A DNA stretch of 64,000 nt from positions 3,969,501 to 4,033,500 of the forward strand of contig NZ_CP050440.1 of the NCBI RefSeq assembly GCF_011769525.1. The letters are read 5' to 3'. The translations under genes and the position numbers were made by a program. This DNA is from Tolypothrix sp. PCC 7910. Lineage in GTDB: Bacteria; Cyanobacteriota; Cyanobacteriia; Cyanobacteriales; Nostocaceae. The notes below the pieces were generated by a model. It made no database searches. It saw only the letters and a list, made by a program, of their open reading frames with translations, and had not been told where the DNA came from. Of the stretch, positions 19,189 to 58,489 are shown piece after piece (the stretch's first letter is position 1; every line of letters starts with the position of its first letter).

Positions 19189-19193
19189 ATCTA

Positions 19194-19302
19194 AGTAGAG
19201 CGGTGCATTTAAAGATAACTAGTCAGGACTGTCATTTGTTTTTTGTCATTTGTCATTGGTAATGCTTTCAAGCCTATTGATGTTAATTTATACCAACTTA
19301 CT
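19194..19302 (+). mobile_element. MITE-like repeat, TA-flanked
   Basis: 109 bp beginning AGTAGAGCGG and ending CAACTTACT, flanked by TA on both sides. It shares the core GATAACT...CTGTCATTTG...TCATTGGTAA...TTTCAAGCCTAT with copies at 40128-40371 and 58167-58279. It lies between ndhD4 and chpX. Confidence 0.65.
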
Positions 19303-19425
19303 TATTTAGTAGGTGATGACTAATTAATAATTGATAAAGATATATAAAAACTACTTAATTTCCCCATTTTAATAAAAAATACACCTTGAAAAAATCATAT
19401 TTTAAATTACTAGGAGAAACGTCCA

Positions 19426-24635: not shown

Positions 24636-25175
24636 TTCTGCCTGTCATTGCCAACTAGGTTTTATTTATAACTGCCTGCTACTAAAAATTAGGGAATGTA
24701 TGAATAGATGAATTAGAGTTAGCCAATCCCAGGCAATAGTATTTCTCAATATTCTCTTTTAAAGAACTGTCTTCTGCTCAAGTTAAAATTATAATTTGTG
24801 GGCAGATTTTAGCTCTATGTTTATCTCTAATTCCTTATGATTATCTCATAAGGTTTCTATACATATATAAATATATTAATTTTGTACTCAATATAAACTC
24901 AACCTCTAAACTATGGATTTCAGGCGAAACATTAATGTTTTGGGGGGAGAGGTACGAGAATTAATTATTCAATAATTTTAAGCATATTACCTAAATTGTT
25001 GGATTTGTTTGTGGATTTTATAGCAATTAAAAATTATGATTTTGTACTCATAACTTCAATCATCAAATTTAGGATTAAATCCATAACTACAGAAATCCAG
25101 ATTATCTAAGGTGTGTTACGGCTTCCGCCTAATCTATCAAAACCGTTGGGGAAAGTTTCTGAGGTTCTGTGTCAA

Positions 25176-25199
25176 ATGCGTTACGCTGCGCTAACGCAT
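25176..25199. repeat. REP-like palindrome
   Basis: ATGCGTTA-CGCTGCGC-TAACGCAT, an eight-base perfect stem. A related palindrome with inverted loop lies 155 bp on. Confidence 0.7.
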
Positions 25200-25353
25200 C
25201 CTACATACATTGTCAAAATAAAACTTCCTATTGATAAAAATGCGGAATCGCTAGTTCACAGTTTGTAGTTGTAATACCCAAGATTTAGGTTCATGCATTG
25301 TCAGCTTGCCATACTGATGAGTTTCTCATCTTGGTTATATATAGTTCGCGTAG

Positions 25354-25380
25354 GATGCGTTAGCGATAGCGTAACGCATC
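25354..25380. repeat. REP-like palindrome
   Basis: GATGCGTTA and TAACGCATC pair around GCGATAGCG. It is a relative of the palindrome at 25176-25199, in the region just before the TolB-like gene. Confidence 0.7.
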
Positions 25381-25467
25381 ATCTGAGATTTTTTCTAGTC
25401 AAGATAATTGAGTGAATCAATAAACTCATCATTAAAATACATTGCTGTACTTTTAAAGCGAATAATC

Positions 25468-26535
25468 ATGTTTATTTTTTATAATCGTCCTCTGGTTTTG
25501 TCTTTATTCTTAGGAACGCTACTTAGTCTAACTAGCTGTATTAGTAAGAATTTCACAGCAGCTAAAGCGGAAATTTCTGCTCAAAAATCTCCTAATATTC
25601 AGCAAAAAATCACAGATTTAACTCCCAAAATTCAGCTTGCGGAAGAACCGCAATGGTCACCAAATGGTAAGCAGATTGCTTTTATGAGTTTAGATAATCC
25701 TGGTAATGAAGAAATTTATGTCATCAATGCTGATGGTTCAAATTTAAAGAATCTCACCAAGAATAAAATTAAGGATCGCTCTCCTTTATGGTCACCGGAT
25801 GGTAAGAAAATTGCCTTTTTGTCTGGACGCGATCGCAACCCGGAAGTTTATGTAATGAATGCTGATGGTTCCAAGCAAACTAATTTAACAAAAAATCCAG
25901 CAGGTGATTATCCTTATGTCTGGTCACCGGATGGCAAAAAAATTGCTTTTGGTTCGCGTCGAGAAAATAATGATTATGAAATCTACGTGATGAATGCTGA
26001 TGGTTCTAATATTACGAGAATAACGAAAAATCCAGGATATGATTCTGTACTTTCTTGGTCACCCGATGGTCAAAAGATTGCTTTTATTTCAGAATGCGAT
26101 GGTAACGAAGAAATTTATGTGATGAACGCCGATGGTTCTAAGCAAACTCGATTAACTAAAGACCCAAATAATAATGCAGGTGCAGTTTGGTCACCAGATA
26201 GCAACAGAATTGCTTACCATGCAAGCCCAGAACCTTTTAAGGATAATGGATATATATATGTCATCAATGCTGATGGTTCTGGTAATACTCAGCTGACATA
26301 TAAAGGCGTGTCCCAAAACCCCGTTTGGTCACCTGATGGGAAACGCATTGCTTTTGAATCCAATCGTGATGGTAACTCAGACATTTTTGTCATCAACGCT
26401 GATGGTTCTGGTGAAATTAAATTAACGAATAATAAAGGTAGAGATTCACGTCCAGTTTGGTCACCTAACGGTAAACAAATCGCTTATGAATGCTTACAAA
26501 ACGGAAAATCCCATATTTGTAGGCTGAATGCATAA
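25468..26535 (+). CDS. TolB-like beta-propeller lipoprotein (PD40 repeats)
   Basis: 355 aa from the ATG chosen here; the frame stays open upstream to a TTG, but this ATG gives a proper lipoprotein signal (hydrophobic VLSLFLGTLLSLTSC with lipobox Cys). Residues ~55-355 are about seven PD40/WD40-like units with WSPDGKKIAF and IYVMNADGS alternating, as in the TolB propeller. It is likely anchored at the cell envelope. It lacks the TolB N-terminal domain and no tol-pal genes adjoin, so a Tol-system role is not implied. A terminator follows. Confidence 0.85.
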   Translation: MFIFYNRPLVLSLFLGTLLSLTSCISKNFTAAKAEISAQKSPNIQQKITDLTPKIQLAEEPQWSPNGKQIAFMSLDNPGNEEIYVINADGSNLKNLTKNKIKDRSPLWSPDGKKIAFLSGRDRNPEVYVMNADGSKQTNLTKNPAGDYPYVWSPDGKKIAFGSRRENNDYEIYVMNADGSNITRITKNPGYDSVLSWSPDGQKIAFISECDGNEEIYVMNADGSKQTRLTKDPNNNAGAVWSPDSNRIAYHASPEPFKDNGYIYVINADGSGNTQLTYKGVSQNPVWSPDGKRIAFESNRDGNSDIFVINADGSGEIKLTNNKGRDSRPVWSPNGKQIAYECLQNGKSHICRLNA

Positions 26536-32654: not shown

Positions 32655-33803
32655 AGACACGTCCGGAATATGAATTGGGTACAAAAAAATGGTAGAAAGT
32701 AAAATTGACCCTCTACCAAAATTTAATTAAATGATTAGTATATTTGATTATATACAAAAGTATCCACGAAGAGCAAAGCAACTTTTGGGGATTAGTTATG
32801 ACCAATTTACTGACCTTGTAAACTATGCTAAAAACAGTCATGAAGAAGAACAACTCAAATTGGAACAGAAGAAAGTTAGAATACATCGTCGTGGAGGTGG
32901 ACGCAAAGAATTATTATCCATCCCAGAACAAGTATGTTTGTGCTTGTTTTATCTGAGACAAATACCCACATTTGAAGTTTTAGGAATAATGTTTGGTATA
33001 TCAAAAACTTTATCTAATGATACTTTTCATTACTGGAGAAAAATATTACGTAAGATTCTCCCTTCTAGTTTAATAGAGCAAGTAGAAAATAAAGAAGGAG
33101 ATTTGCTCATTATACAAGAAATATTAACGAATTTTAAGTTGCTAGTTGATAGCGTAGAACAGCCTATAGATAGACCATCTGACAACGAAGAACAGAAAAA
33201 GTTCTTTTCGGGAAAGAAAAAACAGCATACTATAAAAAACCAGATAGTTTCCTTGCCAGAGGGAAAAGATATTATTGATGTTACAGTAGGCTCTCCAGGG
33301 CCAACAGCAGACATAAAATTATTTAGAGAGCAACAAACAAAATTTGATGAAAAACAAGAATTTACGGGAGATAAAGCGTATCAAGGTGGGAATAATATTA
33401 CTACCCCTCATAAGAAGAAAAGAAAACAACAATTAAATGAACAACAAAAAGAAGAAAATAAAGCTCTATCAAGTAAGCGTATATTTGTTGAGCATTTAAT
33501 ACGTATTGTAAAAATTTTCCAAGTGGCATCACAAAGATTTAGATTAAATGCTGATGTTTATAATGAAATAGTTTTGTTAGTTTGTGGTCTAGTAAGACTG
33601 CGAATTGGCACTTTCGTATTACCGAATAGCGCCATAAATTAGTATCAATTAAAAATTGTGTTTGCGTTAGGCAAGATTATGTATTTTTCTGCTCTAAACT
33701 ATCAGTAACTATATCAAACACTTATTGTTCCATTGCAACAGAATCTGCAAGGACTGGTCTCAAAGCCTTGTAAATATAGGCTTGCGAGTTTTCGGACGGG
33801 TCT
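32655..33803 (+). mobile_element. Complete IS5-family insertion sequence (about 1149 bp)
   Basis: Imperfect terminal inverted repeats AGACACGTCCGGAA (left) and AGACCCGTCCGAAA (right, reverse complement) match at 12 of 14 positions. The flanking ATT on both sides (32652-32654, 33804-33806) fits a 3-bp target duplication. It contains one intact DDE transposase. It sits 9 bp downstream of the hydrolase stop, so no CDS is broken by it. Confidence 0.85.
32731..33642 (+). CDS. IS5-family transposase (DDE_Tnp_4-type)
   Basis: 303 aa. An N-terminal HTH region (EQVCLCLFYLRQIPTFEVLG, then GISKTLSNDTFHYWR) is followed by a DDE catalytic core with LVDSVEQPI (first Asp), TGDKAYQG (second Asp) and RIFVEHLIRIVKIF (Glu). 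All three acidic residues are present and no frameshift is seen, so the enzyme could be active. The codons are AT-rich and Lys-rich relative to neighbours. It lies inside the IS with readable ends. Confidence 0.9.
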   Translation: MISIFDYIQKYPRRAKQLLGISYDQFTDLVNYAKNSHEEEQLKLEQKKVRIHRRGGGRKELLSIPEQVCLCLFYLRQIPTFEVLGIMFGISKTLSNDTFHYWRKILRKILPSSLIEQVENKEGDLLIIQEILTNFKLLVDSVEQPIDRPSDNEEQKKFFSGKKKQHTIKNQIVSLPEGKDIIDVTVGSPGPTADIKLFREQQTKFDEKQEFTGDKAYQGGNNITTPHKKKRKQQLNEQQKEENKALSSKRIFVEHLIRIVKIFQVASQRFRLNADVYNEIVLLVCGLVRLRIGTFVLPNSAIN

Positions 33804-33998
33804 ATTAAATGCTGAATTGATTAAATAATAAATTTGATTTTGGAGAAGCTAGTACCGCTGCCTTGGAAGTCAAAAGTCAAAAGTCAAAAGGCTAATATAT
33901 CAAGGCTTTTGACTGTTTGAAAGGGTAGCTAGATTTACGCCGCGTTGTACTAGGCACACATCAAGGAGGTTTATTTTCTGTTCCCTATTCCCTCTCTC

Positions 33999-39893: not shown

Positions 39894-39926
39894 TAGTCCA
39901 GCGACAATCCTCACTCAAAAATTATC

Positions 39927-40883
39927 ATGCTAAAAGCAATTGATACTGACATTTGGGTTGCGGAACAACCCCTAAAATATTTTGGCTTGGAAGTAGGAAA
40001 GAGGATGACTGTGATTCGTCTGAGCAGCAATAAATTAATGGTGATATCACCAATTAAGATTGATAACTCAACTATCAATGATCTCAATCAATTGGGAGAA
40101 GTAATTTACATTATTGTTCCTAACTTAAGTAGGTCGGCGAAATTAAAGATAACTGGCTGAGGCTGTCATTCTTACAAAGTTCTGATCGGAGGAACCCTCC
40201 GCTCAGACTTTGCGCTTTGTCCTTAGTCATTGGTGAGCCACTGCGTTGGACGGGTTCCCCGGCTGGTTCGCGTAGCGTCTCCCATTGGGAGAAGCAAGTG
40301 GCGACATTGGTAAGGATTTCAAACCTATTTACGTTTCTAAACATAGTTTGGTTTATTTCCACTGGCTTACTTATATCATCATCTATTTGTTGCAGACTTT
40401 CAGCTTTACTACCCCCATGCAAAACTATTAGCAGTATCTGGACTGGAGAGCAAACGACCAGATTTGCAGATTGACAAAATTATTAGCAATCAAAGCATTT
40501 CTGTGATTGATGAAGTTGAGTATGTCTTAATAGAAGGATTCAACACAGTTGATATCAATGGATATTCACCACTCAATGAATGCGTCTTTTTTCATGCCAG
40601 AAGCCAGACTTTGATTGTCACTGATATAGTTTTTCATTTTGATGAGCAATGTGCACCAAGGACAAAGTTAATAGCTAAAATGTTTGGCAATTACAAACAA
40701 CTTCGTCCATCATTATTGGAGAAATTAGCAACTAAAGATAAAATCAAAGTCAAGCGTTCAATGCAACAGATGCTCAGTTGGGATTTTCAACGAATCATCA
40801 TGGCGCATGGCAGCATAATTGAACAAAATGCTAAACCTCAGTTGAAAGCAGGTTATGAGTGGTTTTTAGAAATAACCTTGTAA
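39927..40883 (+). pseudogene. DUF4336 gene disrupted by a MITE
   Basis: The 5' part encodes MLKAIDTDIWVAEQPLKYFG up to IVPNL; the 3' part resumes as YHHLFVADFQLYYPHAKLL and runs to the end. Both halves match the DUF4336 (metallo-beta-lactamase-like) family as I recall it, including the HH motif. Between them lies the element at 40128-40371 with TA on both sides. Removing the element and one TA (246 bp) joins TTA to TAT CAT CAT in frame and gives 236 codons plus stop. As it stands, translation stops at 40160. Confidence 0.88.
40128..40371 (+). mobile_element. 244-bp MITE-like element inserted in the DUF4336 gene
   Basis: Ends AGTAGG... and ...CTTACT are short inverted repeats (AGTAGG/AGTAAG), flanked by TA duplications at 40126-40127 and 40372-40373, as for Tc1/IS630-type targets. 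It contains nested repeats: a hairpin CGGAGG-AAC-CCTCCG at 40189-40203 and a GCGTCTCC-ATT-GGGAGAAGC block. No ORF of its own. Relatives at 19194-19302 and 58167-58279 lack the nested inserts. Confidence 0.85.
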
Positions 40884-41005
40884 TATTCAACCCAAAACTT
40901 AAGCCGGGAAATCAGTCCAACACACTGGCTCAACTTTGCGCTATTTACGCCGTTATGTACTAGTGGGTTTCCCCGCCTTTTACAACCATCTATGGCTACA
41001 ACTGT

Positions 41006-58134: not shown

Positions 58135-58166
58135 ATTAGTTAAAAATTAAGATCATCTCACCTCTA

Positions 58167-58279
58167 AGTAAGTCATTGGAAATAAACCAAACCATGTTAC
58201 GAACCGGAAATAGGCTTGAAACCCTTACCAATGACTAATGACAGCCTCAGCCAATTATCCTTAATTTCGCCAACCTAGT
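58167..58279 (-). mobile_element. MITE-like repeat, minus orientation
   Basis: About 113 bp. The left end TA-AGTAAGTC and the core AATAAACCAAACCATGTT, CTTGAAACCCTTACCAATGAC and CTGAGCC-type block match the DUF4336-inserted copy in reverse orientation. The right end CCAACCTAGTT is diverged. It lacks the nested hairpins of the 40128 copy. Confidence 0.7.
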
Positions 58280-58489
58280 TCAAGGCTGGTAATGTTCACT
58301 AATCTAGGCTTTGAGGTCTTTTCATCTTCAATAAAATCCTCACTTGAATTTTAAAACATTCGCTCAGTGACTACTGAGTGCGCCTACAAACTTATCTCGG
58401 TTTTAAGTATCTATCGTTACATTTAAATATTCAGTATATAAATAAATTATGAGGTCATCGCTAAAGTGCGTTGACACGGGCTAAAATCT

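Follow-up and report, generated by a model that had tools for sequence, protein, structure and literature searches.

In the cyanobacterium Tolypothrix sp. PCC 7910 a DUF4336 gene is present in two pieces, and the locus raises the question of what separated them, when this happened and whether it could be undone. The window analysed here is a stretch of 64,000 nucleotides (contig NZ_CP050440.1, positions 3,969,501 to 4,033,500). In the reading-frame translation, the gene opens with an ATG at 39927 and reads to ...PNL (TTA at 40125-40127). Five stops lie in frame within the following 246 bp (40128-40373), the earliest of them after codon 77; the frame then picks up as YHHLFVADFQ and ends with a TAA at 40881-40883. 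As 246 is a multiple of three, the reading frame is not shifted, and it is the stops carried by the insert that break the gene. The joined flanks form 711 nt (236 aa plus stop), and the split gene with its uninterrupted 237-codon frame, described in an earlier sequence-only reading of this DNA, was thus recovered. The 5' part (67 codons, 39927-40127, plus strand; E = 5e-8) and the 3' part (40374-40883, plus strand; E = 6e-11) match consecutive parts of the PF14234 profile in the right order (positions 3-65, then 87-171). Both halves pass the 28.5-bit cut-off (32.9 and 42.5 bits), as does an intact orthologue, which covers profile positions 3-173 as one stretch (79.6 bits). Since the stop after codon 77 comes from the insert, the interrupted gene is most likely a pseudogene. 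Substitutions on its own branch (7 non-synonymous, 2 synonymous; 5:3 and 5:5 on two sister branches) are too few to tell. Two further DUF4336 matches, both longer, are present elsewhere in the Tolypothrix genome. In Nostoc sp. XA010 (locus L211, 1110-1500) a different insert, about 390 bp long, interrupts the same gene behind residue 58.

The insert, together with both TAs, spans 40126-40373. A body of 244 bp (40128-40371, plus strand) lies between two copies of a TA (40126-40127 and 40372-40373), where the empty sites of G001 to G004, four genomes of the same genus, have a single TA; the body is missing from these congeners and repeated within its own genome. The left terminal inverted repeat TAAGTAGGTCGGCG (40126-40139, plus strand) has no mismatches to the family pattern and is identical to one end of a Dolichospermum IS630 element, while the right repeat TAAGTAAGCCAGTG (40360-40373, minus strand) has two mismatches. 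This right repeat and the subterminal stretch next to it (together 40326-40373, minus strand) resemble the transposase-side end of an IS630 element. The interior carries a hairpin module, CTTACAAAGT...GCGCTTTGT (40171-40220, plus strand), and a second module, GTGAGCCACTGCG...AAGTGGCGAC (40233-40305, plus strand). Three ORFs of 48-100 aa that overlap the element matched no Pfam family at E 0.1. Being short, with no recognisable gene, terminal inverted repeats, a duplicated TA and dispersed copies, the element is a MITE, and its earlier description as TA-flanked was accurate. As RNA it folded better than all 200 shuffles (z -3.8), which is expected from the inverted ends and inner hairpins and implies no function; no Rfam family reached its gathering threshold in 39900-40900.

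Seven other genomes of the genus were searched for the orthologue, and a clear one was present, among the matches listed, in four (G001 to G004; 80-98% identical, and 84-98% over the 5' part). In all four the gene is intact, CCTAACTTATA[T/C]CATCAT is unbroken and one TA lies exactly at the insertion point. The other three congeners, which are uninformative on the site, had no clear orthologue among the matches listed, except for a fragment of 92 bp in G005. Species genomes were searched as well and yielded 24 homologous loci, in all of which the protein runs across the junction, P[N/S]L being directly succeeded by YH[H/Y]LF. One of them, L196, probably represents the G004 genome again; L217 has two stops elsewhere within the matched stretch, and L211 is the Nostoc sp. 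XA010 locus, interrupted at another point. The sequence-only reading had named, as evidence against its interpretation, a homologue that does not go on as YHHLF after NL; the four orthologues and the 24 loci all go on as YH[H/Y]LF. The intact gene in these four congeners and the continuity of the 24 loci indicate a lineage-specific insertion. G003 and G004 are approximately 95-97% identical to the window on either side of the site, and as the site is empty in both, the insertion is younger than the split from both; the exact empty sites with a single TA bear out the proposal that it is recent. We are highly confident that a MITE derived from an IS630-family (Tc1/mariner-like) IS inserted at a TA in the DUF4336 gene after the split from the nearest relatives.

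The element has many relatives in its own genome. A 20-bp end pattern, allowing up to two mismatches, gave at least 135 matches, compared to one for the reversed control. A script, which omitted copies whose ends matched less well and counted identical copies once, paired these ends into 47 copies, most often of 131 bp and ranging from 85 to 354 bp, although the longest is doubtful. A TA was present at both ends in 42 of the 47, a count that is biased because the search pattern itself contains TA, so that the empty sites are the real evidence. Copy lengths include 124, 131, 138, 145, 152 and 159 bp, and these steps of 7 arise from a core that is an array of GGTCATT-like heptamers. Two further members lie in the window, one of 113 bp (19192-19304, plus strand) and one of 117 bp with one end decayed (58165-58281, minus strand), and both sites are empty in G004; G003 was left out of the count at 58165, where it has a different insertion. 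For another own copy (L065), exact empty sites were found in G002, G003 and G004, and G001 aligned by one flank only. Five own copies were looked at, including L078, which was left out as a single flank aligned; the four that could be judged were all missing at the same place from at least one close relative. A segment of about 1.5 kb elsewhere in the window (25027-26507), overlapping by eye a gene with TolB-like repeats, is also missing from G004.

The inner modules are distributed unevenly among the 47 copies: the hairpin is in 19, the second module in 11, both in 7 (as in the window copy at 40128-40371) and neither in 24. The 3' part of the hairpin had 30 matches in the own genome and the 5' part of the second module 19. 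Thirteen of the 30 hairpin matches lie over 400 bp from any MITE end among those listed, and at least two of these 13 are at MITE copies. Five of the remainder of the 13 were read: three (L225, L226 and L229) are in heptamer arrays without MITE ends, and two (L224 and L227) have weak end-like matches. The presence of the hairpin in heptamer arrays lacking paired MITE ends points to a separate small repeat, and the module at 40171-40220 is probably a small dispersed repeat nested in the heptamer array of the MITE. At those three loci CTTACAAAGT..GCGCTTTGT sits inside the arrays as if targeting them. Elhai et al. (2008) reportedly described small dispersed repeats and tandem heptamers in heterocystous cyanobacteria, including short hairpins nested in heptamer arrays, a layout that the module at 40171-40220 resembles.

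A stretch similar to the right end of the MITE, in another copy of the family, matches the end of IS630 genes. Plasmid records searched with a 131-bp own copy gave 13 matching records, five of which match the right 48 bp only. Four of these five were inspected, and annotated genes adjoin the 48-bp match in each: an IS630 transposase gene and a helix-turn-helix protein gene in H6, a helix-turn-helix protein gene alone in H8 and H9, and a transposase gene in H10. The family sequence had no match in phage records. H6 is the Dolichospermum plasmid pUHCC0315a, where the far end begins with TAAGTAGGTCGGCG and the whole element measures 1176 bp, with two overlapping frames matching HTH and DDE_3 domains (the DDE part scores 112.3, above the NCBIfam IS630 cut-off of 100, and the HTH part 60.9, below it). 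With a limit of E 1e-30, the Dolichospermum transposase had matches in at least 59 of the 145 family genomes; some matches are 42-52% identical and so, judged by sequence, perhaps belong to other IS630 groups. Thirty IS loci were fetched and their ends scored against the 14-mer, three mismatches at most being allowed and one chance match inside a gene being left out; both ends were found in 16, one end in 10 and none in 4. The right end of the MITE is identical to the transposase-side end of IS copy L142 at 37 of 48 positions (26 of 34 beyond the first 14), a value reached in none of 20000 shuffles; the left end is similar to the opposite IS end chiefly in the 14-bp repeat, with little likeness beyond. 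These shared ends mark the MITE as derived from IS630, and the probable mover is an IS630-family IS of about 1176 bp with the inverted repeat of the family at its ends. In G007, another congener, 12 of the 20 matches to this IS630 start no more than six bases from the edge of a contig, a pattern suggesting a multi-copy IS630 left unassembled. In G001, an IS copy (L170, G001:C3) contains disrupting stops and is also interrupted by a short element of about 129 bp that carries like ends on either side.

The own genome was missing from the matches listed for the Dolichospermum-type transposase (145 family genomes searched), and a related transposase query had no match there at E 0.001; this second query had no positive control of its own, and its sister query matched at least 59 genomes. 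The whole IS, used as a DNA query, had 11 matches in the own genome (40 of 49 candidates scored), all within its first 53 bases, which identifies them as MITE ends. Because the matching transposase was not found in the own genome, we infer the mover from relatives. Unpaired ends were considered as possible autonomous copies and rejected on reading by eye: the 15 loci represent 14 places (L023 and L088 being one place), L063 and L074 have a right end after all, and the neighbouring frames of the others look like other genes or another IS. The DDE_Tnp_4 transposase gene of the window (32731-33642), presumably IS5-like, was rejected as the mover, having by eye other flanking repeats. The segment of about 1.3 kb in which it lies (32655-33951) is missing from G004 at the same place.

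Recent and repeated insertion of this family in a nearly complete genome in which no cognate IS630 was found might be explained by a transient IS, for example a plasmid-borne one, which drove a burst and was then lost, or by a non-cognate transposase; we put this forward tentatively. Taken by itself, movement of the element by one of the host's own IS630 transposases, not cognate to it, is unlikely. It would account for recent own copies where the cognate transposase was not found, and the genome does have 21 DDE_3 matches, of which 17 fall into three multi-copy groups; however, the ends of these three groups (TATAGCGTTT.., TAATACCAAT.. and TATAGGA..) are unlike the MITE ends, and they were rejected as movers. 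One of the other four matches, a fragment of another IS630 group in the own genome (L132, near 3880739-3880985), is followed by an end-like TAAGTAGTTAGACAAAATTA, identical to the MITE left end at 16 of 20 positions, so this group, distinct from the Dolichospermum type, may have moved the MITE, as far as such end similarity can tell; the fragment itself is stop-broken and retains just a third of the domain.

How such elements leave a site bears on two further alternatives. ISY100 (ISTcSa) of Synechocystis PCC 6803 belongs to the IS630/Tc1/mariner family and duplicates its TA target; its terminal repeats are short and imperfect, and 30 bp of each end were enough (PMC2170065). Cleavage takes place at the 3' ends and, on the 5' side, two bases into the element; a ligated donor reads TATATA, and simple rejoining gives TA-NN-TA, a junction 4 bp longer (PMC2170065). 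The element studied here has in common with ISY100 the cyanobacterial IS630 family, the TA duplication and short terminal repeats, but its repeat sequence differs and no gene is recognisable in it, and the presumed mover, in its Dolichospermum copy, carries two frames that overlap. By analogy, simple rejoining at 40126-40373 would leave TA-NN-TA, 4 bases over the empty site, and would shift the frame of the DUF4336 gene. For the gene to be restored exactly, the break would have to be repaired from a sister chromosome with an empty site, or the DNA between the TAs deleted by slippage; the small window comparison with G003 and G004 showed no sign of either. The sequence-only reading had claimed that precise excision restores the frame: exact joining does give the 711-nt frame, but the ability to excise in this way found no support, as no event was seen and rejoining of the ISY100 type adds 4 bp.

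The exactness of the empty sites would also fit an ancestral element that was lost from the relatives by repeated precise excision, the window keeping the old state. This is extremely improbable, given that footprint-free loss would be required separately in each of G001 to G004, the element is in none of the 24 homologous loci and TA-NN-TA is what simple rejoining produced for the IS630 element that has been studied. A reversible switch, in which the insertion does not inactivate the gene because precise excision in some cells, or from RNA, restores the 236-aa protein, is only slightly less improbable. Exact joining restores the frame, neither gene part has another break and the few own-branch substitutions, too few to tell, are in keeping with it. 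Against it stand the matching transposase not found in the own genome, the Rfam result for 39900-40900 and the known excision product, which would be 4 bp longer. In addition, the small comparison of alignable window parts with G003 and G004 gave four 4-bp differences each, none of them TA-AG/CT-TA, so the TA-NN-TA footprint was not seen. A recent insertion into a gene that is most likely now a pseudogene is the reading we retain.

MITEs of cyanobacteria have been described before, and our literature search found mentions of them and of Nezha; two forms of the family end sequence were found only in papers on unrelated subjects. Nezha (Zhou et al. 2008) is reportedly of a size class similar to that of the present element. 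It is described as a cyanobacterial MITE with an ISNpu3-like IS as proposed mover (PMC3049150), and it resembles our element, compared by description only, in having an IS as proposed mover. The genome of Anabaena sp. 90 has 147 MITEs, 15 of them within disrupted ORFs, with no evident similarity to the ends of its ISs according to the authors (PMC3542288). The disruption of ORFs is common to both cases, whereas here a matching IS630 was found in relatives.

Both the anatomy of the site and known IS630 chemistry make it likely that a transposase acting in trans inserted the element at the TA. An IS630 transposase would bind the TAAGTARGTCGGYG-like ends of the MITE, which are shared with the IS; it would cut the element from a donor site and join it to a TA in a cut-and-paste step, and repair would then produce the duplication of the target TA that is seen here. 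The event is ordinary in kind, and recent insertions where no cognate transposase was detected are a mild surprise, which makes the case modestly interesting. The locus is a clean case of insertion whose empty sites are exact to the base, and it ties an abundant MITE family of Nostoc to one specific group of IS630, so that mobilisation becomes testable. It also tempers the expectation that the gene is repaired on excision, known chemistry making restoration the less probable outcome.
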